From the NCBI RefSeq assembly GCF_028728065.1, contig NZ_CP117811.1, positions 868,001 to 932,000 on the forward strand: a stretch of DNA of 64,000 nt. Direction: 5' to 3'. The notes beneath the pieces were generated by a model. That model ran no database searches and was not told the DNA's origin. It saw only the letters and a list, made by a program, of their open reading frames with translations. Of the stretch, positions 6,879 through 58,832 are shown piece by piece; the stretch's first letter is position 1, and each line of letters starts with the position of its first letter. The translations under genes were made by a program, and so were the position numbers. The stretch comes from Lentisphaera profundi. Lineage in GTDB: Bacteria; Verrucomicrobiota; Lentisphaeria; Lentisphaerales; Lentisphaeraceae.

Positions 6879-9800
6879 TTATCTTCTAGTAAAAATATCG
6901 TGAGAAATAATGTTTTTAACAAGGTCTTTAAAGCCATATTTTTGCTCCATTGTCTTGTGAACGATTTGGTCAATATCTTCATTGTCCATGTAGGATAGGT
7001 CGCGCCCTAGCGAGTAGGCTAAGAGGTGTTTTGTAACGGCGCGAGTCACATTTTCTTGCTTGTTTTCTTTGATGTATTTTTTGAGTTCATTGATGCCATT
7101 GAGTTTTGTTCCGTCAAGGAGTTCTGTTTTTGAGTCAGCTTTGGCATTGAATTTACCAACGGCATCGTAGTTTTCGAAGACAACGCCCCAAGGGTCAATT
7201 TTCAAGTGACAGTCAATACATGAAGATTTTTCGCGGTGCAATTCGAGTTGTTGTTTAATAGTTAAACCTTTGAAGCTGGGTTCATCGGCATCGAGTGCAG
7301 GTACATTTGGCGGTGGGGGTGGGGGCTCATCATCCAGAAGTTTTTCCATTAGCCAGACACCACGTTTGATCGGGTGGGCTTGGTTGCCGTCTGAGTGACC
7401 GGTCAAGAAGCTTGCTTGGGTAATAAGGCCGCCGCGATTGTACTCTGGCTTCAGTTTAACAGGACGGAAATTCGTTCCTTGCACGCCTTTGATACCATAG
7501 AATTCAGCTAAGTTTTGGTTGAGCATAGCGAAGTCCGAGTCGATGAAATTTTCAATACTCATGTTGTTTTTAAGGACGTGAGTTAAGAAAGTACGGGTTT
7601 CTTTTGCCATGTCCGCTTTTACAAAACGATTATAATTTTGGTACTTCTTGAAATCGGTACTGATGCTTTCGAGGCGATCCATGCGCAACCATTCACGAGA
7701 GAAAGTTTCGATGAATTGATCGCTCTTTGGATCTTGAACCATGCGGTCGATTTCTTTGTCCAAATTAGTGGATAAGCGAAAGGAATAAGCGAGATCAAGA
7801 AGGCGTTTATCTGGTGGTTGATTCCAAAGGAAATAAGATAAACGATTGGCGAGTTGGAATTCATTAACTCTTGGTGTCCCTTTTGATTCCTGCTTGGGTT
7901 CAGCCATAAAAAGGAATTCAGGTGAGCAGAGTACGGCGACCAAAGCTTCTTTCACACCATCTTCGTAACGTGGGAATTCAGCTTTGATTGATTTCCAGAA
8001 GTTATAGTAAATATTAATTGTATGCGCATCCACTTTTTTGCGGAAGGCGCGATTAATGAATTTACTTATGACTTCCTTAGTATAAAGATCTTTGTTGGCT
8101 TTATTTTTTGAGTCAAAGAAAATGTTTTTATAGGAGAGCATGGGCCACTGGGGTATGTAAGGGGCTTCAAATTCTAAGCGTTCAATTTTCACAGGTGGGC
8201 CTGAGAGGTCTTTATCTTTGACCAAGTGATCATTATATATACCCAAAATCATAATGTTGGCTAGCGGGTTTTTTGTATTGGGGTTAATAACTGGAACAGG
8301 CAGGTTCTCTAAGCGCCCTTTAAATACTTGTGTTTGTGATTTACCAATAGGTGAATTAAAGGCTTTTGATCCATCATATAGCTTGTGATCCATACCGTCA
8401 TCTGCACGTGTTCCTAAGAAAGCTTGTAAAGAACCGGAGATGTTTTTGTATTTTTCTTTGCTAGCAAGGTATTTATTATAAGTGTTTTCTTTTGCTCGAA
8501 TATCGCCTGTTTTATCACTTGCGGGGATAATACTTAATTCATGAAATTCTACAAAATCATTGGCTTTGAGGTTAAGGGTGTAGGTGCCAGATTTTAGTTT
8601 ACCAAAAGCTACAGTTGAATTGATGAGTGTAGGTTTATGTTTGTTATCATCTAATGCTCGTTTAAGGACAAGGCGTTGACCTTGATAATATGAGAATTCG
8701 GCACCATAAAAACGTTTTTCGTAGCCTATGCGGTTATATACCTTTAAAGACTCTATTATTTGGGGCTTATTGAATTCTATTTTAATCCAAGGATTATCTT
8801 TGTTTAGTAGTGTATGAGTCAAATTTTTCTTATTGCCATCCATCAGGGTTTTAGGTCCCATACTATCGTCGTACGTAGAACTCATAGTGATTAGAGCATT
8901 TTCAATTTTTTTGTTTTTAGGACCATAGATTTCTAATTCCATTAAGTTGATGGTACGCTTTTTACCTGGAATTTGAATCAATAGTGAATTCACCTTTTTA
9001 TTCTCTGAGCCCTTGATTGAGATCACATCGGCAACATTTCCCTCATTTTTCTCATTTTTATGATGAAAGTGTTGGAGGATATAGTAATTGTTAAGATTAA
9101 AAGCGAAGTTGCTTTTTTTCTCTTTTTCACTGATGGGCTTTCGAGTAATATTAAAATGGTAGTAGCCGTCTTTAGGGATATTAACTTGTACGTTAGCAGT
9201 AGAGACGGATCCGCGGTCGTCAGCAACTAACTTGTTGCCGTCGAGTTTAAAGTTTTTAATCATTCTAAAGTCTTTTGCTTTGAATGTTTGTGTGCCATCG
9301 CCTGCCGTTGGATGGGCTTTGGATTTTTGATTAGTTTTATTGAGGAAGAATTCGCTGACTGGAATAGGTAGAGAATTGCTAGCCGTCACACGGAAGACAA
9401 AATCACCTTCAGAGGGGAAGTCTTTGCGGATGAGCATTTTCAGGTTGGGGTTAGCTCCCTGCCATGACTTAGGTGCTTTTTCAACATGTGGAACAGACCC
9501 ATGCATGACCATGCCATCCTCGACCATACCCCAACGACTACGATCATCTGAGCCACGGAAGCCGACCATGATATTTTTTTTGATCTCTTCTACTTTTAAG
9601 CCATTAGGAGCAATTTCATTATCGGTTAAAACTTTGTCGTTTTCATCGAGTATCGAGATTTTGTAGTTTTTACCGTCGAGGTTAATCGATTGGTAGCCAC
9701 CGATTTTGGCATACACTTTTTTACTGGCGTTTTGAGCGAAATCCAAACGGTATTTACTCACCGCAGGTTTTTCTTTTGGCCCAATAGCTTTATCTAAAGC

Positions 9801-10340
9801 ATTGCGCGCAATTTTTTGATAATACTCAATATGCAGTGGAGAAATCGTCATGCTCTCACCCGCGTTAGTGAAGCCCATGTGGGATTTAGCTTCGGGAGGA
9901 AGAGTGTTGCTGAAGTCAATCGAGAGACCAAGAAGTTTTTGGAGTGAGTTATTATATTGATCTTTGGTAAGGCGGCGAACTACCGTCTTTGCCTCGCCGC
10001 GCTTCTTTTCTTTGGCGAGTTTGAGGTTGCCAGTCATCCAATCAACAATTTTTCTGCGTTCTGCATCAGAAGGTTGTTTAACGTCATCAGGGGGCATGTC
10101 CGCGGTGTTAATAACGTCGAGAGCGGCATGCCATTTTTCGCCGTCTTTACCGTTGATGATATCGGGATCTAGTATATCTAAGCGAACTTCACCTTTCTGT
10201 TTTTTTACGCCATGACAGCGAATACAAAACTTTTCTAGAAGGGGTTTGATTTCACCTTTGAAATCATGCGAGGCTTCTGCGGCGGGTAGAGCAGGGCTCG
10301 CCAAGAGTAAGGTGAAGAGAGCGTAAAGATGTTTTTTCAT
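6879..10340 (-). CDS. DUF1592-family planctomycete-type cytochrome protein
   Basis: A 1153-residue secreted multidomain protein. After a signal peptide (about 1-23) comes a planctomycete-type cytochrome c domain with haem motif CIRCH (39-43) and a DUF1587-like segment near GLSIDFSNTLPPEA. Sandwich regions follow, one resembling an F5/8 (discoidin-like) fold around TLMDGNKKN...WIKIEF. The C-terminal half carries the DUF1595/1592/1588/1585 set (for example RLSYFLWNQPPD, GVWLMEKLLDDEPPPPPP, DPWGVVFENYDAVG) and a second CxxCH (CIDCH, 1041-1045). Function is unproven; a periplasmic electron-transfer role is suggested by the two haem sites. First gene of a DUF1592-DUF1552 operon. Confidence 0.92.
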   Translation of the reverse strand: MKKHLYALFTLLLASPALPAAEASHDFKGEIKPLLEKFCIRCHGVKKQKGEVRLDILDPDIINGKDGEKWHAALDVINTADMPPDDVKQPSDAERRKIVDWMTGNLKLAKEKKRGEAKTVVRRLTKDQYNNSLQKLLGLSIDFSNTLPPEAKSHMGFTNAGESMTISPLHIEYYQKIARNALDKAIGPKEKPAVSKYRLDFAQNASKKVYAKIGGYQSINLDGKNYKISILDENDKVLTDNEIAPNGLKVEEIKKNIMVGFRGSDDRSRWGMVEDGMVMHGSVPHVEKAPKSWQGANPNLKMLIRKDFPSEGDFVFRVTASNSLPIPVSEFFLNKTNQKSKAHPTAGDGTQTFKAKDFRMIKNFKLDGNKLVADDRGSVSTANVQVNIPKDGYYHFNITRKPISEKEKKSNFAFNLNNYYILQHFHHKNEKNEGNVADVISIKGSENKKVNSLLIQIPGKKRTINLMELEIYGPKNKKIENALITMSSTYDDSMGPKTLMDGNKKNLTHTLLNKDNPWIKIEFNKPQIIESLKVYNRIGYEKRFYGAEFSYYQGQRLVLKRALDDNKHKPTLINSTVAFGKLKSGTYTLNLKANDFVEFHELSIIPASDKTGDIRAKENTYNKYLASKEKYKNISGSLQAFLGTRADDGMDHKLYDGSKAFNSPIGKSQTQVFKGRLENLPVPVINPNTKNPLANIMILGIYNDHLVKDKDLSGPPVKIERLEFEAPYIPQWPMLSYKNIFFDSKNKANKDLYTKEVISKFINRAFRKKVDAHTINIYYNFWKSIKAEFPRYEDGVKEALVAVLCSPEFLFMAEPKQESKGTPRVNEFQLANRLSYFLWNQPPDKRLLDLAYSFRLSTNLDKEIDRMVQDPKSDQFIETFSREWLRMDRLESISTDFKKYQNYNRFVKADMAKETRTFLTHVLKNNMSIENFIDSDFAMLNQNLAEFYGIKGVQGTNFRPVKLKPEYNRGGLITQASFLTGHSDGNQAHPIKRGVWLMEKLLDDEPPPPPPNVPALDADEPSFKGLTIKQQLELHREKSSCIDCHLKIDPWGVVFENYDAVGKFNAKADSKTELLDGTKLNGINELKKYIKENKQENVTRAVTKHLLAYSLGRDLSYMDNEDIDQIVHKTMEQKYGFKDLVKNIISHDIFTRR

Positions 10341-10441: not shown

Positions 10442-12508
10442 TCAAAAATTGTTTATGGAGACGTGAAGGTTAGAAGGGATTTTTAATTTTTGTATTTCTT
10501 TAAATTGCTTTTCTGAAAGGATGAGGTTTTTGAGCTGCTTCATGTTCAGAACTTCTTGAGTGATACTTATGGGTGAAAGGCTTAGGTCGAGATCGGATAC
10601 ACCAATGGATTCAAAGTGCTGAGGGAATTTTTTCATGCCCATGATTTTCAAATAATTAATGGGGAGGAAATTAAAGTAAGTTTGAGTTACTTTCATCCTA
10701 GTTCTGGGGTTTCCGAATGTGTAGCCAATGTTCTTTAAGTTTTTACCACTTATCTCTAAAGCTTTGACTTCTGAGTGGTATTTGAAGTTTTCATGGTCCC
10801 AGTTTGGGTTTGAAGCCTGAATGAGATTTTGGATAAAACTTAATTTGTCATTGAGGCTAGGCTTGGTTATGAGATAACAATTGAGAACTTTATATTTAAC
10901 ATAATGGTCTCTGAGTGCGGTAAGATCTTTGGTAAAATCAGGAATTAAGTTCTCGGGTATTTTTTGACCCTCTGGAATGAGATTCGAGTATTTTTCACTG
11001 AGTTTTTGTATTTCGGTATTTTTTGTATCTGTTGCTTGGGCTATATCAAAATCACGCTTGGATTGACTGAAGTTTTGTATCATGAAGTGAGCCCGCGCCC
11101 GCTTAGAATAAAGTTTTTTATTGTTGGGGTCCGCTTCAATAAGTCTATCTAAATAAAGGAAAGTTCTTTCCATGTGTTCCGTGGGGTCTTTGTCGAGTGA
11201 AGAGTGGAAGAGGTAGCTTAATACATCACTCTCTAAGCGGTTTGAGTGGTCGTGGATAACGTGATTGCGCCATTCGCGTTCTTTTTCTAAAAGAGCCAAA
11301 GCTTGATCCGTGCGTTCTTTTTCAGTTTGAAGCTGTAATTGTTTTTTCTCTGCTAGTTCTCTTGCTATTTCTGCTTCTTTACGGCGTTCTTCAATATTTA
11401 AGAAGTAGACTGTTGTCAAAACAGCAATGATGATAATAAATGATAAGACGATGTGGCATTGGGCTTTATTACGGCGGTAAAGGAGTTTGGCTTGACGTAA
11501 AAAAGAGGGCTTGTCTGCGGAAGGTGAGAAGCCCAATAAATATTTTTGAATATCTTTTCGAATTAAATCCACACTTTGATAGCGTTCGTAGCTATTGAAC
11601 TTCATGGCCTTATATATAATGGATTTTAAACCATCTGAGATGCCTTGGTTTGGAAAATCAAACTTCCCTTCAAGGTTATTCTGTATGATTTGTTTATCTG
11701 AGCCATCATCAAATGGGGATTCAAAAAAAAGAATAGTGTAAAGCAGGCAACCTAAGGCATAGATGTCAGCTGCTTCAGTTATGTCATCTTCCCTATGGAT
11801 TTGTTCCGGAGCCATAAAGCCAGGAGTGCCTTTGATTTCCCCTTGGTGAGTTATGTTGTTGAGGAAGTCTGGGTTAAACATGAGGCCATCGAAGCTATCA
11901 AAGTCCTTAGAACCAATGACTTTTCCCAGGCCCCAATCGCAGACGAGTACTTCGCCGAAATTTCCGACCTGAATGTTGTCCGGTTTTAAATCGAGATGAA
12001 CAACTTTATGTGAATGGGCATAAGCGATGGCATCACAAATTTTTAAAAAGATGTTGAGTAAGACTTCTTGGGAATATTTTTGTGTGTAGCCAGGATGCTC
12101 GTCTTTAAGTTTATTAATTATTTTTTTTAATGAGTCGCCTTCTTTCAACTCCATGGTAAAAAAAGGTGCGCCCATGGGGCCAATTCCCACATCGTAGACG
12201 GGTATTATATTGGGGTGAGTAAGCAAAGCAGTAAGGTGAGCCTCACGAATGAAGGGGTCATAAAGTTCTTGAGAGGCTCTTTTTATGAGCCGTGCCATGG
12301 CGACATTTCTTTTGGTAAGTTGGTCATAGACTTTCGAAATGCGTTTCATGCCGCCTTCGGCAACAAAAGATTCTTTACAATAACGCTGATTATTTTCTAA
12401 AAGTTCTTGATAGAGTGGGGGCAGTTCTTCGCCTTCTACGATTTCATCATTATCCTCAAAGAGGTCGAGGAGTTTTTTAGAACGTGCTGAAATGTCTTGC
12501 TCACTCAT
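10442..12508 (-). CDS. Transmembrane Ser/Thr protein kinase, atypical ATP site
   Basis: The 688 residues hold a cytosolic kinase domain (about 45-325), one membrane helix (about 352-370), a coiled coil (375-415), a TPR-like stretch (about 445-490) and a C-terminal leucine-rich tail. Catalytic loop HLDLKPDN (171-178), DWG in place of DFG (191-193) and APE (233-235) are present, with the GEVLVxDWGL pattern seen in planctomycete kinases. The glycine loop reads EGGMKR, and the VAxK lysine position is Ala (VAMA, 69-72, followed by Arg73), so ATP binding may be altered. It overlaps the upstream sigma factor gene by 4 bp (ATGA), so the two are co-translated. Such kinases are thought to control their linked sigma factor; the target is inferred. 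Confidence 0.85.
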   Translation of the reverse strand: MSEQDISARSKKLLDLFEDNDEIVEGEELPPLYQELLENNQRYCKESFVAEGGMKRISKVYDQLTKRNVAMARLIKRASQELYDPFIREAHLTALLTHPNIIPVYDVGIGPMGAPFFTMELKEGDSLKKIINKLKDEHPGYTQKYSQEVLLNIFLKICDAIAYAHSHKVVHLDLKPDNIQVGNFGEVLVCDWGLGKVIGSKDFDSFDGLMFNPDFLNNITHQGEIKGTPGFMAPEQIHREDDITEAADIYALGCLLYTILFFESPFDDGSDKQIIQNNLEGKFDFPNQGISDGLKSIIYKAMKFNSYERYQSVDLIRKDIQKYLLGFSPSADKPSFLRQAKLLYRRNKAQCHIVLSFIIIIAVLTTVYFLNIEERRKEAEIARELAEKKQLQLQTEKERTDQALALLEKEREWRNHVIHDHSNRLESDVLSYLFHSSLDKDPTEHMERTFLYLDRLIEADPNNKKLYSKRARAHFMIQNFSQSKRDFDIAQATDTKNTEIQKLSEKYSNLIPEGQKIPENLIPDFTKDLTALRDHYVKYKVLNCYLITKPSLNDKLSFIQNLIQASNPNWDHENFKYHSEVKALEISGKNLKNIGYTFGNPRTRMKVTQTYFNFLPINYLKIMGMKKFPQHFESIGVSDLDLSLSPISITQEVLNMKQLKNLILSEKQFKEIQKLKIPSNLHVSINNF

Positions 12509-31913: not shown

Positions 31914-33866
31914 TTATATGATTTTGAAATGAGCAAAAAACTGTTGCGCATCAGGTGTGAGTATAATATCGGCAGCCTTTATTTTGCCTTGGGGATTCAT
32001 TTGAGATGTGTTGCTCACTAAAGAGCTTTCAGTTTTGTTAATAATAGATAAGCGGCTAATAGAAGATCCCTGGCAGGCACGATTGAGTTCGAGCGCAATT
32101 CTACCCATTGTGATACGTGGATTTAGTTCACAGATGGGACGGAAGTAAAGAGTCTCAAATTCTTTCCAAATGAATCCATCGAGTGCAAATGGCCCAGAGA
32201 AATCCATTTCAATCATTTCTTTAGCCCAGAGTTGAGCCACTTTATCAAAACCTTCTTTGATGCAGTTACCTCCATTGGCAAATACGAATTTCTTCAGTTC
32301 TTTTGACCAGTGCTGATGAAAGGGCCCGCATATATTTGCGGTATTCGCAAAGGCTTGGGTTTCAATTTGTGTGAGGCCGTAGAATTTAAGTTTTCCATTA
32401 GCTAAAAGCTCGTATTGAGCGGAGAAATCAGCCAGTCTTTCTCGATGAGCTTCAGCTAAAATCCCCCCTTGACGTTTTATATTGCCGTTGATCCAATTGA
32501 GATCATCATTTTGAAGGTTTTTTAGTGAGACCCTACGGCAGCCTCTTCCTGTTGTGGCTAAGGGAGCTTTCAATAAAATGTCTGAAGAAAGATTGGATTC
32601 GAGAAGCGATTCAATGGTTTTAAAAAAGCTTGCAGGCTTTAAATCAAAGAAATCGTTCTCTGATATGAGCTGCCTATATATTTCTGCCTGGAATTTTTTT
32701 GAGTATAAGTTTTTCCAAGGCTCTTGCCAAAGCGTTTGTTTGAAGCTAGTGGATTGAAGTTTTGTGATCGCAGTAGTCTTTTTTTCTGCCACAGGACTTT
32801 TTCCCCAAGCTTTAATGAAGCCAGGCTTATGCTTTTTAAGCAGTTGAGGTATTTGCTGGAAGTCAAAATTCTCGGGTAAAGGGAATTTTAACTTATAAAA
32901 ACGTTCAAGAGTACTGAGTGATATTTTTTTGTTGCTAAGTAAAATATCATCTTTTTTACATAGAGATATAAGCAAGGGGCAAAGATCGTCTTCCGCTATG
33001 GTATTGTTTTTTCGAGGAGATATTTTATGAGACTCAAGCTCAGCTCCAGGGTTGAATGTCCATATATTAGGACTTCTTCCTTTGCTGCTATTATGAAGCT
33101 TAAATTGTAGGATAGTCGCTTCGTCCATTTGGGCGCTAAGGCGGCCGCTCATATCAAAGTATTTATTTGATTTAGCTCGACTCGGATCAAGAGCCGTAGG
33201 TAAATGTCGAAGGTAATAGTCCCAGAAACTGCTGTCCTTATTCCATTTATTCATCCAGTCGACACCAAATTGGACATGACGGATTTCATCTTCATAAACA
33301 AGCTTCAGGATATCGGCAGTTTTTTTGTCTCCTGCTTGAGTAAATAATGTCTTGTAGTAGCAGGTGAAATCTAAGTTAGCTTGCTCAAGCGTAAGGCTCA
33401 TTCCCGCAAGGTAGGCTTGAGGTGTTTCAACTTTGGAAAGACAATCCCAAAAGAAACTACTTAGTGGGAGGTCACCTGCTTGACAAGATAATTCTTTGAG
33501 CCGATTGAGATATAATCGGCAATGCTTTTGTTCGTCAATAAGAGTTTGGACTAAGCCACGTTGGAATTCTTCGGGTACTGAATTTGAGAATTTAATGAGC
33601 GCATGCGCCATGAGTTCAATAGCGACTAATTCATGATTCATAAACATGAGCAAGAGCAGGCCGCGGTCACGGTCAGAATTTAGTTCGCCCAATTGCAGTT
33701 TTTTACTGTCTTTTTTACCAAATGAATAAGCATCGGAACGCTCAGGTGCACTTTTTAAAGATAAATTCTCCTTGAGCGGAGAATAATCAATTTTACCTGG
33801 ATGTCGTAGTTTATCTTCGATATGAGGTGATTCGAGAATGTTCTGAGCAAAATGATATAAATTCAT
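31914..33866 (-). CDS. Ferritin-like (DUF455-type) and ATP-grasp fusion protein
   Basis: A 650-residue two-part enzyme. Residues about 60-235 look like a DUF455 ferritin-like four-helix bundle with all six expected iron ligands: E79/E84 (NHELVAIE), E112-H115 (DEQKH), E161 (TLEQ) and E194-H197 (DEIRH). Residues about 400-600 look like an ATP-grasp domain: K433 in LKAPLATTGRG, AEAHRERLADFSAQYEL, LDGFIW and the metal-binding ELNPRITMGR (E580, N582, R584). So an oxidase/hydroxylase-type half is joined to a ligase-type half. The substrate is unknown; tRNA modification or peptide tailoring are guesses. Divergent from clpS. Confidence 0.65.
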   Translation of the reverse strand: MNLYHFAQNILESPHIEDKLRHPGKIDYSPLKENLSLKSAPERSDAYSFGKKDSKKLQLGELNSDRDRGLLLLMFMNHELVAIELMAHALIKFSNSVPEEFQRGLVQTLIDEQKHCRLYLNRLKELSCQAGDLPLSSFFWDCLSKVETPQAYLAGMSLTLEQANLDFTCYYKTLFTQAGDKKTADILKLVYEDEIRHVQFGVDWMNKWNKDSSFWDYYLRHLPTALDPSRAKSNKYFDMSGRLSAQMDEATILQFKLHNSSKGRSPNIWTFNPGAELESHKISPRKNNTIAEDDLCPLLISLCKKDDILLSNKKISLSTLERFYKLKFPLPENFDFQQIPQLLKKHKPGFIKAWGKSPVAEKKTTAITKLQSTSFKQTLWQEPWKNLYSKKFQAEIYRQLISENDFFDLKPASFFKTIESLLESNLSSDILLKAPLATTGRGCRRVSLKNLQNDDLNWINGNIKRQGGILAEAHRERLADFSAQYELLANGKLKFYGLTQIETQAFANTANICGPFHQHWSKELKKFVFANGGNCIKEGFDKVAQLWAKEMIEMDFSGPFALDGFIWKEFETLYFRPICELNPRITMGRIALELNRACQGSSISRLSIINKTESSLVSNTSQMNPQGKIKAADIILTPDAQQFFAHFKII

Positions 33867-49183: not shown

Positions 49184-51154
49184 TTATTGCTTGAAAGGCT
49201 GAAAAGAGAAATCTTTGATTTCGATTTTTAGTTGACCTTCTAAGGATTGGATGCTGATTTTTTCTAAATCCTGAAGGCTGGCTACAGCGGGGAGATTAAC
49301 CGCAATAGTTTGATACTGATCATTCGTATTTTTTAGGCTAAGATAAATTTCGTCACTCATTTCATTAAGACCAAATCTGCTATTGGGACTACGCTGAAAA
49401 GTCAAAACAGCTTTTGTTGCACTTGCAGATTTATAGTTCAGAATAAGTTGGCCATTGCTTAAACTGGAGTTTTTATCCAAGATGAAATTAATAGACTGAT
49501 TTTGTGGTGCTGAAATCATTTTGTTTTGAGCGAAAATGGCTTTTTCTCCTGGAGCATAAAGTTTAGTTAAAGCTTTGTTGAGTTGACGGTGATCGAGGTA
49601 GCGCTGCATATTTTCGGGAGCTGAATTAATCAGTCCCAAGATAAGTGCAAGGGTATGTGCCGAGGTTTGAAACTCGATGACTTTTTTCTGTGTGGTATTG
49701 TAGCCTTCCCATGGACCGTGATCAGTAAGTAAGAGTGAAATAGTTTCCCAATTGCGCTTTAAGAGTTGTTCAACTTCACGAGGACGGTACATACTGGCAA
49801 CACCCAGTGAGTAAAGCGATGCAGCATCAGTAATGCGGTCTTGATCTGAGAGGCAATTTGTAGGGAGACCGATATGTCCAGTATATTCTGTTTTATTACC
49901 GGTATATGATTCGGACAGAAAGCCAGGGAGTTGATTTTGCTCAGCAAAATCAAGGTGGGCATCAACGGCGGTTTGCATAAGTGAATTCCAAGCAGGAGTT
50001 TCTTGGTCTTTCATAAAGTTAGTTAAGCCAAAAAATTGAAACGCGGAGCCATCCCAAGTAGCGAGTGAATATAAATCTTTACCAGAGCTATGTGGATAAG
50101 GCTTGATTTTGAAGGCGGCATTTGCGAGTGCCGCAATATCTAAATTATAATTGAGTACAGTGAAAGTCCATGGCCCGCGAAATTCATTAATGAAAGAATT
50201 CATGTGGGCTTCTTTGAAAACGCCATTGACGTCCCAACCCGTATAAGTATCATTAGTCGCATCCCAGCCAAAGAGGAATGATTGAGTTTTTTTATCCAGC
50301 ATGAAATCATAACCTGCTGCTTGATTATCGAGAAAAACTTGTAGCTCTTGACGCATTTTAATAGCTTCAGATCTTTCTTTAATACTAGGGTGGAGTAGGG
50401 CACCAATAGCTTTTGCTACTGAGGCCGTTAGATTGACATTGTCACCAAAAATAATATTCACTACACGCTGATCAAGAATTTCCATGATGCGGTACTTATC
50501 TTGTTCATACTTGGCTAAATTATCTTTAAAATGCTCAGTTCCGTACTTTTCCGAACGGCGAATATTTGCCCATGAGCCATCTGACGAAGCTTCGAGCCAG
50601 CTGGCAGCGACAAGATCATTCCAAATAGCTTCACCATCGAGACCATCTAGTGCTTTGATGAATTTGGCTTTGCCGGCTTTTTCACCCAAAGGACCGACGC
50701 GCTTACCTGAGCCATTGCCAAGGTCTAAGAAATTCACCAGAAGGCCTTTTGCGGAAAGCGCAGGATTTTTTTGATCAGCCAAAAGGCTCGCCGTTGTTTT
50801 TTGCAGGGCTATGAGTGCTTGCTCACGACTCAAATAATCCGAATCACAATAACCAGCACTAATTGATGCGCTAAGTTCCAACCATTCGCCAATAGCGGAG
50901 AGTTGAGTAAAACTTCTTAAAAAGAGGCCTCTCTCGGGATCTTGATTCCATCCTTCAAGGGGATAACCAGAATCTTTATCAATCATAGCATTTTCAGTTT
51001 TGATAAACTTGAGAGAGTTATCTAGCAGTGCGTGGGTATGATTGTGCTTCGATGATATTTTTGGGGCATGAGTACTTGTTCTAGTTTCGGTACGAGTGTG
51101 TACACAGGAACTAGCAAGCATTAGGCAAGAGCTAAGTAAAAGGATTTTTTTCAT
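49184..51154 (-). CDS. Lipoprotein with glucoamylase-like (PF10091-type) domain
   Basis: A 656-residue lipoprotein (lipobox ASSC, Cys17). The mature part looks like an alpha/alpha-toroid of the glucoamylase-like family: RSFTQLSAIGEW, GLLVNFLDLG, a WDGSAFQFFGL motif (comparable to the WxGSxFE motif), a SESYTG turn, then DHGPWEGYNT and TSAHTLALILGL...NMQRYL. A beta-sandwich follows near 560-650. Families of this fold include endo-beta-1,2-glucanases, which fits the neighbouring GH94 gene, but the catalytic acid is not identified here. It is the third gene of the locus, 32 bp after the membrane protein (in its corrected frame). Confidence 0.5.
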   Translation of the reverse strand: MKKILLLSSCLMLASSCVHTRTETRTSTHAPKISSKHNHTHALLDNSLKFIKTENAMIDKDSGYPLEGWNQDPERGLFLRSFTQLSAIGEWLELSASISAGYCDSDYLSREQALIALQKTTASLLADQKNPALSAKGLLVNFLDLGNGSGKRVGPLGEKAGKAKFIKALDGLDGEAIWNDLVAASWLEASSDGSWANIRRSEKYGTEHFKDNLAKYEQDKYRIMEILDQRVVNIIFGDNVNLTASVAKAIGALLHPSIKERSEAIKMRQELQVFLDNQAAGYDFMLDKKTQSFLFGWDATNDTYTGWDVNGVFKEAHMNSFINEFRGPWTFTVLNYNLDIAALANAAFKIKPYPHSSGKDLYSLATWDGSAFQFFGLTNFMKDQETPAWNSLMQTAVDAHLDFAEQNQLPGFLSESYTGNKTEYTGHIGLPTNCLSDQDRITDAASLYSLGVASMYRPREVEQLLKRNWETISLLLTDHGPWEGYNTTQKKVIEFQTSAHTLALILGLINSAPENMQRYLDHRQLNKALTKLYAPGEKAIFAQNKMISAPQNQSINFILDKNSSLSNGQLILNYKSASATKAVLTFQRSPNSRFGLNEMSDEIYLSLKNTNDQYQTIAVNLPAVASLQDLEKISIQSLEGQLKIEIKDFSFQPFKQ

Positions 51155-55151: not shown

Positions 55152-58100
55152 TTAGCTATAAACTTCAACGATATTGGACTCATCATTGAGTAAAGATCTG
55201 AACTTGGACCATTTAGTTTTTAATCCCCCATCACGGTAGGGATTATCGCTAGAGGTATTTAACTGAAGTTCTTGACCATTGAGTATAACTTTCTTCTCTG
55301 TGGCTTTGTTGTATTGGAAAACAACGGGCTTGCCATCAATATCGAAATTGAAGTTTAAGCCATCGAGTTCGGCAGGCAATACTGGATCAATAACAAAATC
55401 TTCGTAGAAACGACGAATGCCTAGTACGCGAGTGATCAAGAGGTTTACATAGATACCAGGGCCTGATGAATATATTCTCCATCCACCCTTAGACTTTACT
55501 TGACCTGAGCGCAGTTCTTCCACAGTATCTTGAGCTTCATAGCGATCGTTATAATCGGCATCAGAACTAGAGAAATAACAGTTGGACTGACGGATTTCGG
55601 CCGATTCAAAAGAATCTTGAATGTTGACGGGATTCACCACTTGCATAGCGGTCATCAATTCTTCGGCTTTGCCGAGCTTTGCCATGGCTTCCATGTACCG
55701 TAAATGAGCGTGGACATAGTGATTGCCAATTTCGCGACCGACAAAAGTTGCGGTTTCCGCACGTTGGAAAGATTTGGAAATGCCCCCAGTATACTGTGGT
55801 GGAGGATCCATGAGATGAACGCCATCAGCAAAAAGAAGTTTGTCGGCAATCATTTCGCTGTGATTTTCAGCTTGCTCAGGATCAAATATTTCAGAGATGA
55901 TACCGCGTATAGCAGGTAAAAGTCTATACTTCACACCCGTGCTCTTATCTTGTGGGTGAAGTAGTAATTCAACATCATCAGGAGAATTAAAGAAGGCAAA
56001 ACCCGCGGTGAGATCATCCTTTACGAGGTACTCATTGAAATCAATTTTCATTTGAGCGCAGATTTGAGCGAGTTCTTCGGCAAGTTCTGTTTTGCCAGCT
56101 TTCTCACAAACGACTGTGTAGCGACTGAGTGTTTGGTAAAGTAATTCTACGGTCCAAACCGAAACGAGTTTTTCGCGCATCTCTGGATTAGCAGGCTGAA
56201 GTGAATCATTCCAGTCACCATCGCCGTAACTTATGAGCTTGGTATCACCTATAAAAGACTTGCGAATATTATCGAGTTCTTTATTAATATGCTCAAAAAG
56301 AGTTTCTTCTTTATCAGTGAAGTTAAAGCCTTCAATATTAGTATAAGCAATTTTCTCATCGAGAATACTGAAGTCATTTGAGTACTCCACATAGTCGCAA
56401 AGGGCTTTTAGAGGCCATACAATGATATCACCATGAGCGTGTGCCTGTTGAATATCAAAGAATTTATCAAACATGAACCATTGTGGCCATTCGCCATTTT
56501 GCTCATACTGATGCTTGTAAACTTCGAGGATGACATCTTTTACCGCATCAGTTTTCCCAAAGGCTAAAAGGAGTTCTACGGGTCCTTGGCAAACATCTCT
56601 AGTTCCCCAGGCCGCCCCTGAATATTGCTCAAGTCCATAGGGCTTAGTGTAGTGAATCATGGCATTGTGCTGCAACCATGGGATTAGCTCGGATATTTTT
56701 TCTACAGCAGGGTTTTTATTGCCAAAGAGGCGGGCGTTATTATTGAGTTTGCTCCAATAAGCATCGGCTTCTTTGGAAAAAATACTGGTGTCAAAATCTG
56801 CCGCGGTGTATTTCTTGGCATTGGCATCGGCTTTAATGTCATCAGTAATTGTACCCGTGAGCACTATTTCAAAAGAATTTGTAGCGTCAGTCGAAATACT
56901 GGCATAGGGATAGTTTTTAAATTCGCCATCATTAAAGAGCACTTGATCACCCTTAAATTGGCTCGCGACTTGTCCATCTTTTACCGATATATCAAAACGG
57001 CTTTTTGGGTACTTATTTTTACCAAAGTAATCGTGTCCAGGAAATAAAGTGAGGCGACCTTCTGCTTGGCGTCCCACCGTTTCATTGGCGTATTCATTAA
57101 CACCCATGATAATATTGTTACTTATAATGAACTCTAGGTCACGTCCGGATTCGACTTCAATATTAGTCACCACAACTGCATCGGAAATAGCAGACTGAGT
57201 TGTTACAATAATAGTTTCTTCTGCACTCTTATATATCCAGCGACAAGCATTCAAACGTATTTCGAAAGCGGATGGCATGCGCAATTGCTGCCAGTTATCA
57301 TTGACTTTAACAAAAATTCGCTGACCCGAAGCGCGTTGTATATTGAGCCAACCACGAACAATGCCAATAGCTTTATTAAATGAGGTATTACCAAAAGTAA
57401 CCTGTGAGTTAAAGACACCTGCCATCCAGCAAGTTGAAGCAATGGCTTCATCTGATGGGGCGAGTTCTTCGCCAGAACGGATGATGTGACCATGAGGGCG
57501 TTCGCAATGGATTTCTTTGTGTTTTAAGACAACGTGACGGCTATCCTCACCATAGAAAAAGGCGGCTTTTTTGCCATTGATATTTTCTAGATTACGGAGG
57601 TCTGAAGAAAAGTATTTTTCAATATCATCATCATTGAGATCTTCACTTGGGAAGAAATCTCCACGATCAAAAATGTTTTGATGAGAAGTACTTTTATGAT
57701 CTTCTAAATGAACTTCACTTAGTTTGGCGAACTCTTCTTGTGCTGAAGTGAATAAAGCTAAATCCGCATCGGAACATATTTCTGGATGATCCACTGAAAA
57801 GGAGGCGAAGAAAGTACAACTAGCACTCGTATTGGCTTCAATAGAATAAGTTTTTGACTGTAGTCCATGAAGTGAAAATTCACCTTGTTTGCGAATGGAT
57901 GCTAATTTTTTCTGACTGAGGGCGGCAGGCTGACTACTTTCTTTGTACTCGAGGCCAAAGAACTGCATACCGTCGGTAATGAAGCTTTCTGCACCATCTA
58001 AGGCACCAGACATAAGGAAAGGAAAACCGGTGTGTTGCTTAAGGTTTTGTCTTGAGCAAATTAATTGACCCGTATTTTCGTCACTGATGATGGTGTGATC

Positions 58101-58568
58101 TATGTATTGAGAAACATAGGCCTCGTTATTAAGTGATGCGCCTTTGGCCGCGACGCCCGCATCTTGGATATAGATGAAGTCGATATCTTTCTTTGTTGAA
58201 CCGGTATTTTCTACTGTTGCGGTCCAGAACCATTGATTGCTTTGTGGCGCGAGACGGAAATCTAAGTGATACTTACAGCCCAAGGCGGAACCTGTATAGG
58301 AAATGGCATTATCACTTGTCGACTGTGCTAATAAGGCATCTTTATTGATTAAAGGCTTACTTGTGATCGTGGAACCTTCTTTTACACGGAGATAAATATT
58401 GTTAATCGATCCATCGAAAACGTTGCCCATAAATAGATTGACCATGACATCATCATTTTCAATACTATAGAAACTGCCATCTTGGAGTAAACGTAGGTGC
58501 ATGCCTGTTTCATTGCGGAATTCGCTAAATCCCAAAGTGTGTTCGTAGCGATATTTGATTTCTTTCAT
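55152..58568 (-). CDS. GH94 family glycoside phosphorylase, probably acting on beta-glucan
   Basis: An inverting phosphorylase-type enzyme of about 1138 residues. Two N-terminal sandwich regions (about 1-280 and 340-620) precede an alpha/alpha-barrel with SGAAWGTRDVCQGPVE, GEWPQWFMFDKF, GDIIVWPLKALCDYVEYSND and the acid-bearing YGDGDWNDSLQPA (about 781-793). The length and two-sandwich form point to 1,2-beta-oligoglucan phosphorylase rather than cellobiose phosphorylase, but the specificity is not proved. There is no signal peptide, so it should work in the cytosol. I use the ATG at 58568, which opens MKEIKYRYEHTLG; a TTG 39 bases upstream is the other option. First gene of the locus. Confidence 0.78.
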   Translation of the reverse strand: MKEIKYRYEHTLGFSEFRNETGMHLRLLQDGSFYSIENDDVMVNLFMGNVFDGSINNIYLRVKEGSTITSKPLINKDALLAQSTSDNAISYTGSALGCKYHLDFRLAPQSNQWFWTATVENTGSTKKDIDFIYIQDAGVAAKGASLNNEAYVSQYIDHTIISDENTGQLICSRQNLKQHTGFPFLMSGALDGAESFITDGMQFFGLEYKESSQPAALSQKKLASIRKQGEFSLHGLQSKTYSIEANTSASCTFFASFSVDHPEICSDADLALFTSAQEEFAKLSEVHLEDHKSTSHQNIFDRGDFFPSEDLNDDDIEKYFSSDLRNLENINGKKAAFFYGEDSRHVVLKHKEIHCERPHGHIIRSGEELAPSDEAIASTCWMAGVFNSQVTFGNTSFNKAIGIVRGWLNIQRASGQRIFVKVNDNWQQLRMPSAFEIRLNACRWIYKSAEETIIVTTQSAISDAVVVTNIEVESGRDLEFIISNNIIMGVNEYANETVGRQAEGRLTLFPGHDYFGKNKYPKSRFDISVKDGQVASQFKGDQVLFNDGEFKNYPYASISTDATNSFEIVLTGTITDDIKADANAKKYTAADFDTSIFSKEADAYWSKLNNNARLFGNKNPAVEKISELIPWLQHNAMIHYTKPYGLEQYSGAAWGTRDVCQGPVELLLAFGKTDAVKDVILEVYKHQYEQNGEWPQWFMFDKFFDIQQAHAHGDIIVWPLKALCDYVEYSNDFSILDEKIAYTNIEGFNFTDKEETLFEHINKELDNIRKSFIGDTKLISYGDGDWNDSLQPANPEMREKLVSVWTVELLYQTLSRYTVVCEKAGKTELAEELAQICAQMKIDFNEYLVKDDLTAGFAFFNSPDDVELLLHPQDKSTGVKYRLLPAIRGIISEIFDPEQAENHSEMIADKLLFADGVHLMDPPPQYTGGISKSFQRAETATFVGREIGNHYVHAHLRYMEAMAKLGKAEELMTAMQVVNPVNIQDSFESAEIRQSNCYFSSSDADYNDRYEAQDTVEELRSGQVKSKGGWRIYSSGPGIYVNLLITRVLGIRRFYEDFVIDPVLPAELDGLNFNFDIDGKPVVFQYNKATEKKVILNGQELQLNTSSDNPYRDGGLKTKWSKFRSLLNDESNIVEVYS

Positions 58569-58832
58569 GTGAGTGAATAGGTCCTTGTGTTTTATGTATT
58601 TACACAAACTACGAATGATTAGGGTAGGGTTTTGACATCTAAGGTCAGAATAAAGTGAAGAAAAATGTCGTGACTTTAGATAATAAGTTCATAATGCAGG
58701 GCCTTCAGGAATCTGTAAAAAAGTAAAATAGAGTGACTTACTACGTAAAATTTTAGAAAAATGTGCAAAGACACTTCACGGATGAATTAAAGGTGTTAAG
58801 CTATGAAAAATTAATTTAAAACTGAGATTTTC

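Follow-up and report, generated by a model that had tools for sequence, protein, structure and literature searches.

What usually ties di-iron oxidases to ATP-grasp ligases is gene clustering and nothing more. In Lentisphaera profundi, one open reading frame, read from the letters of the DNA, appeared to place both on a single polypeptide. The locus raises the questions of whether the two domains are real, whether they have been inherited as a unit, and what one chain with both sites might make. Here, we report a computational analysis of this gene and of its relatives in several bacterial phyla. The window is the whole stretch of DNA that was analyzed (64,000 nucleotides; contig NZ_CP117811.1, positions 868,001 to 932,000).

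Results

The gene occupies positions 31914 to 33866 of the window. The original prediction had its extent and its 650 residues right and gave no strand, which we add here as minus. Its features are as follows.

31914..33866, minus strand: whole gene, 650-residue DUF455/ATP-grasp fusion (single open reading frame, ATG start, stop included)
33114..33761, minus strand: DUF455 (PF04305) ferritin-like domain, residues 36 to 251 (E 1.8e-40)
33243..33674, minus strand: four-helix region with putative di-iron ligands, residues 65 to 208 (AlphaFold helices, ligand invariance)
33066..33113, minus strand: fusion-specific linker, residues 252 to 267 (near-invariant S261, G263, and R264)
31962..33065, minus strand: predicted pre-ATP-grasp and ATP-grasp domain, residues 268 to 635 (Foldseek; colinear with a stand-alone Bacteroidales protein)
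32079..32582, minus strand: putative ATP-grasp catalytic core, residues 429 to 596 (K433, glycine-rich loop 437 to 442, hinge E472, D563, E580-x-N582-x-R584)

Judged by comparison of homologs, this reading frame is a real gene, because both other genomes of the genus have an ortholog (69% and 68% identity, one frame), as do more distant families of the class (30 to 36% identity, nearly full length, no internal stops).

The first half of the protein matched DUF455 (PF04305, presumably the same family as COG2833) with 139.6 bits against a Pfam cut-off of 34.3, and in NCBIfam the window protein had a single match, an insignificant one in its N-terminal half to an R2-like oxidase. Modeled by AlphaFold with 76 aligned fusions, the protein reached a mean pLDDT of 93.7 and a pTM of 0.90, with no residue below 50 (a model made without an alignment, pLDDT 35.7, was discarded). 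The original proposal of one chain with both a ferritin-like di-iron domain and an ATP-grasp domain is borne out by the PF04305 match, this model, and Foldseek, and neither of the two outcomes named beforehand as refuting it was seen. Four long helices are predicted within residues 65 to 208 (65 to 92, 99 to 125, 149 to 177, and 181 to 208), where a di-iron bundle had been expected, and the alpha/beta region that forms the second half of the model (residues 268 to 635) has the expected ATP-grasp fold. Fixed packing of the two domains is suggested by the pTM of the model, which is the sole hint of it.

The best 50 matches listed by Foldseek against the PDB were all ATP-grasp enzymes, and they share only 9 to 13% identity with the window protein. 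They were headed by a Streptomyces peptide ligase (8ynd, E 2.6e-11); further leading matches were 3wvq/3wvr, which we take to be PGM1, and LdmS (7r8q/7r8p, E 2.4e-9), with BesA (8yi6) slightly lower. In the model, the C-terminal half is thus structurally closest to amino-acid and peptide ligases. Structures of PurK, PurT, and biotin carboxylase were also among the matches, with E-values only slightly worse; the ligase assignment therefore rests on rank together with an independent sequence match, that of the C-half profile to LdmS (E 1.8e-4, the sole meaningful one). Amide formation is not certain, because identity to the matched structures is so low and the PurK-like carboxylases follow so closely.

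For the di-iron site, carboxylate and histidine ligands had been proposed at DUF455-like spacing, with E79 and E84 offered as a pair. Six of these residues (E79, E112, H115, E161, E194, and H197) are invariant in 118 aligned fusions, a set assembled from the relatives found in a contig scan and from whole-genome DUF455 searches of several groups, and the same six are present in 8/8 stand-alone DUF455 proteins, of which seven come from alphaproteobacteria and one from Geobacillus. E84 is the part of the proposal that calls for correction: it is invariant in the fusions too, but position 84 is Asp in 7/8 stand-alone proteins, all of which keep E79. E79 is therefore the likely ligand of the pair and E84 probably a second-sphere residue, and the six residues form the likely ligand set (E / ExxH / E / ExxH). 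E79 and E112 lie 33 residues apart, as do E161 and E194; bacterioferritin has the same equal spacing of 33 residues. The ligands are flanked by N77, H78, Q113, Q162, and N164, which are invariant in the fusions, whereas H, I, A, A, and G predominate there in the eight stand-alone proteins. Because the flanking residues differ in this way, we read the di-iron half of the fusion as having an altered pocket, and hence a substrate unlike that of ordinary DUF455 proteins.

In the C-terminal half of the window protein, which no Pfam model matched, the ATP-grasp motifs (LKAPLATTGRG, LDGFIW, and ELNPR) sit where they had been placed: LLKAPLATTGRG at residues 431 to 442, LDGFIW at 562 to 567, and ELNPR at 580 to 584. 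All 118 fusions have K433, D563, E580, N582, and R584; the hinge E472 occurs in 116 of them and G440 in 108. The catalytic residues are likewise kept in five stand-alone Bacteroidales proteins. Their roles (phosphate-binding Lys; Mg-binding Asp, Glu, and Asn; Arg) were assigned by analogy. G263 and R264 of the linker, each present in 117/118 fusions, are not conserved in the stand-alone ATP-grasp relatives. Sequence and model together thus place on one chain a ferritin-like domain with an intact putative ligand set and a complete pre-ATP-grasp/ATP-grasp domain.

The original prediction had called for a search for the same fusion in other genomes, and the search revealed a family spread over several phyla, not a local oddity. 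A scan of genome contigs yielded at least 462 relatives, of which 80, each matching across both halves, were kept; these came from Verrucomicrobiota, Latescibacterota/Gemmatimonadota, Planctomycetota, and Oligoflexia. No viral or phage relatives of the protein were found. In whole genomes, a fusion was called from a strong DUF455 match (E < ~1e-40) in a frame of ~600 to 850 codons. By this measure, fusion-length matches occur in 10/241 genomes of the window's phylum and in 21/64 of the Latescibacterota/Gemmatimonadota group, and 40/58 genomes of the Oligoflexia/Bdellovibrionota group were positive, nearly all with a fusion-length frame (one additional strong match lay in a 341-codon frame).

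Mean pairwise identity is 53% in the DUF455 half and 33% in the ligase half, and the pairwise distances of the two halves correlate (r = 0.90). On the tree of each half, built with few outgroups, the fusions cluster together and the stand-alone relatives fall outside them. These two observations are best explained by a single ancient fusion, after which the halves would have been inherited jointly. As far as sequence conservation can tell, both active sites are under selection together, since six putative ligands and five ATP-grasp residues are invariant in all 118 fusions. Each domain also occurs alone in other bacteria, without its partner; the two activities would therefore be separable in principle.

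Verrucomicrobiota also contain a second DUF455-like group of ~450 to 550 amino acids (L177:354-1724, L178:520-1950, L179:1162-2505 on the minus strand, and L182:817-2472). In these proteins, only the second half is matched by DUF455 (E 1e-13 and 4e-10); the first appears helical as well and has ExxH-type motifs, as though two ferritin-like units stood in tandem. The group was considered as another fusion and set aside, as the two examples scanned had no ATP-grasp match.

An O2-activating di-iron site leads one to expect aerobic carriers. A heme-copper oxidase (PF00115) was found in 73/74 fusion-carrying genomes, the exception being G337, in which none was detected. In a set of 40 relatives, the oxidase was present in 6/6 carriers (12/40 overall); in the phylum sample, in 10/10 carriers (84/241 overall, above cut-off); in the Latescibacterota/Gemmatimonadota group (G251), in 21/21 carriers (46/64 overall); and in the Oligoflexia/Bdellovibrionota group (G250), in 39/40 carriers (53/58 overall). 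Three genomes common to the first two sets were counted once in the total. Hypergeometric probabilities for the first three sets, in that order, were ~2e-4, 2e-5, and 2e-4 (kinship ignored); the fourth set is uninformative because nearly all of its genomes have the oxidase. Nearly all carriers thus have the heme-copper oxidase, as expected of an enzyme that uses O2.

In the window and in the genus, the gene is flanked by an ECF sigma factor gene and by clpS-clpA, an arrangement not seen when two further families of the class were compared. When up to 10 kb to either side of the gene was compared in 111 loci, no neighbor was conserved at a fixed position beyond close relatives, and there was no obvious electron-transfer or amino-acid pathway gene at a fixed position. 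The neighbor clusters were mostly lineage specific (Latescibacterota/Gemmatimonadota, Akkermansiaceae/Roseibacillus) or made up of common families whose positions varied. With no conserved neighbors, the function seems self-contained; no operon points to a pathway, and the main functional link is therefore the joining of the two domains.

Elsewhere in the window, positions 55152 to 58607 (minus strand) encode a 1,151-residue glycoside phosphorylase of the SOGP/GH94 type. Positions 6879 to 10340 (minus strand) encode a 1,153-residue protein with planctomycete-type PSD2-PSD5/PSCyt and cytochrome c domains, adjoined by a protein kinase gene (10442 to 12508), and positions 49184 to 51154 (minus strand) hold a 656-residue reading frame with no Pfam match at E 0.001.

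Discussion

Each half of the protein resembles a known system that lacks the other. Stand-alone DUF455 proteins of Proteobacteria and Bacillota share the domain and the putative ligands and have no ATP-grasp domain; they differ from the fusions at position 84 and in the flanking residues described above. In three alphaproteobacterial loci (L100, L169, and L171), the stand-alone DUF455 gene directly follows a peroxiredoxin gene, and in two of the three, an M23 peptidase gene lies downstream, a neighborhood that is a possible clue to DUF455 function.

The whole C-terminal half of the fusion is colinear (E 2e-16) with stand-alone ATP-grasp-like proteins of Bacteroidales (~370 to 400 amino acids), which, unlike the fusion, have neither a di-iron domain nor a di-iron gene annotated nearby; where annotated, they are called "hypothetical protein" only. 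Four such loci come from gut and oral Bacteroidales (L097:5992-7200, L098:5485-6594, L173:3986-5191, and L174:4995-6110). In three of the four, the gene adjoins that of an AAA-family ATPase, and the family shows weak similarity to LdmS.

LdmS itself (L-aspartate--L-methionine ligase of Staphylococcus aureus, SAOUHSC_02373) has the same fold as the C-terminal half and a weakly similar ATP-grasp core sequence but no di-iron domain. The fusion was not assigned to this family: the NCBIfam LdmS model (NF047900) did not match the window protein and matched 6/27 relatives, the best at 31.4 bits against a cut-off of 475. The best fold matches, PGM1 (3wvq) and the Streptomyces ligase 8ynd, are separate proteins without a di-iron domain. 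The PreAtp-grasp model PF18604 was tried as a mark of PGM1-type membership; it did not match the window protein and matched 3/27 relatives (best E 5.9e-4).

The same two chemistries are paired in another form elsewhere. The oxidase BesC is paired with the ligase BesA in the beta-ethynylserine pathway. At least 25 unique gene clusters, among them that of mangotoxin (MboA with MboC/MboD), have a di-iron HDO oxidase close to an ATP-grasp ligase, and the products are derived from amino acids (PMC13185094). In the HDO systems, the oxidase has a heme-oxygenase-like fold and is a separate, clustered protein, whereas the oxidase half of the fusion has a DUF455 match and ExxH-type ligands, stands on the same chain as the ligase, and has no conserved neighbors in 111 loci that would form a biosynthetic gene cluster.

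We consider the protein a candidate soluble bifunctional enzyme, an ATP-dependent amide (amino-acid) ligase and an O2-dependent di-iron oxidase that would act on the same small molecule, and give this reading a probability of about one in two. The domain architecture is well supported; the substrate and the shared pathway are what we infer. The ATP-grasp half would use Mg-ATP to turn a carboxylate, probably that of an amino acid, into an acyl phosphate, which would then be joined to an amine to give an amide, with release of ADP and phosphate. The di-iron half would activate O2 and, either ahead of the ligation step or following it, use it to hydroxylate, desaturate, or N-oxygenate the same molecule. 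What results would be a small oxidized metabolite of the amide or dipeptide type, made by aerobic bacteria without other dedicated clustered enzymes. The suggestion that oxidation and ligation act on one substrate, already part of the original prediction, gained from the strict joint conservation of the active sites and from their co-inheritance; no substrate, product, or conserved pathway neighbor was found. A bolder form of this reading, which we regard as somewhat short of probable, is that the proteins form an undescribed class of one-chain oxidase-ligases, each encoded by a lone gene in aerobes of several phyla, that make an oxidized amide or peptide and pass an intermediate between the two sites.

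The modified molecule could instead be a macromolecule, with the ATP-grasp half adding an amino acid to a protein (in the manner of RimK or tubulin-tyrosine ligase) or to an RNA-linked group, and the di-iron half oxidizing the same site, in the way that MiaE acts on tRNA. RimK-type models gave stray weak matches in single relatives, the solved MiaE (8fhc) was one among many weak di-iron matches (profile E 0.36), and a single gene outside any cluster would suit a housekeeping modification. Nonetheless, we think this unlikely, as the best matches in structure and in sequence are to ligases that act on small amino-acid substrates, and Pfam and NCBIfam recognized no nucleic-acid- or protein-binding domain. 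Less likely again is a di-iron domain that regulates the ligase, either as a sensor of iron, O2, peroxide, or NO or as a ferroxidase. Ferritin-like folds do include sensors and iron-storage proteins, the carriers are mostly aerobes, and conservation is higher in the di-iron half; however, the invariant ligand-flanking residues that set the fusions apart from stand-alone DUF455 look like a substrate pocket, and DUF455 also occurs alone, with no ligase to regulate.

That both halves are found alone in other bacteria would suit an ordinary fusion of two independent enzymes with no common substrate. We hold this to be improbable, because neither site has decayed and the halves have never been exchanged among the 118 fusions, G263 and R264 of the linker hardly vary, and the pTM suggests fixed packing. 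The alternative to which we give least weight is that the ATP-grasp half would catalyze, in place of amide formation, another acyl-phosphate reaction (such as carboxylation or phosphate ester formation). The close E-values of PurK, PurT, and biotin carboxylase speak for it, but Foldseek ranks and TM-scores favor the peptide-ligase group, and at the level of sequence only LdmS gave matches worth noting. The bifunctional oxidase-ligase acting on a small molecule thus remains our preferred reading.

A literature search returned no publication on a DUF455/ATP-grasp fusion; an earlier mention in a domain survey is possible. For DUF455/COG2833, no function was given in the titles or abstracts of the papers retrieved, and DUF455 has been related to a known fold only (PMC4520260). 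The mangotoxin paper (PMC13185094) contains ATP-grasp and "ferritin-like" but not the words "fused" or "fusion," and a paper on NTP-processing enzymes that combines the same two terms was judged, by its title and the opening of its abstract, not to describe the fusion. What we report is thus apparently undescribed: a conserved one-chain combination whose domains and chemistries are each known.

The fusion brings onto one polypeptide two active sites usually linked by gene clustering alone, with both sites invariant in 118 sequences and with hundreds of carrier genomes, most of them from groups that are uncultured or have been little studied. The function of DUF455 is thereby opened to direct testing, as the ligase half hints at the class of molecule involved (amino acids, carboxylates, and amines). 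The fusion also points to an apparently common, novel metabolite of aerobic Verrucomicrobiota and Bdellovibrionota.
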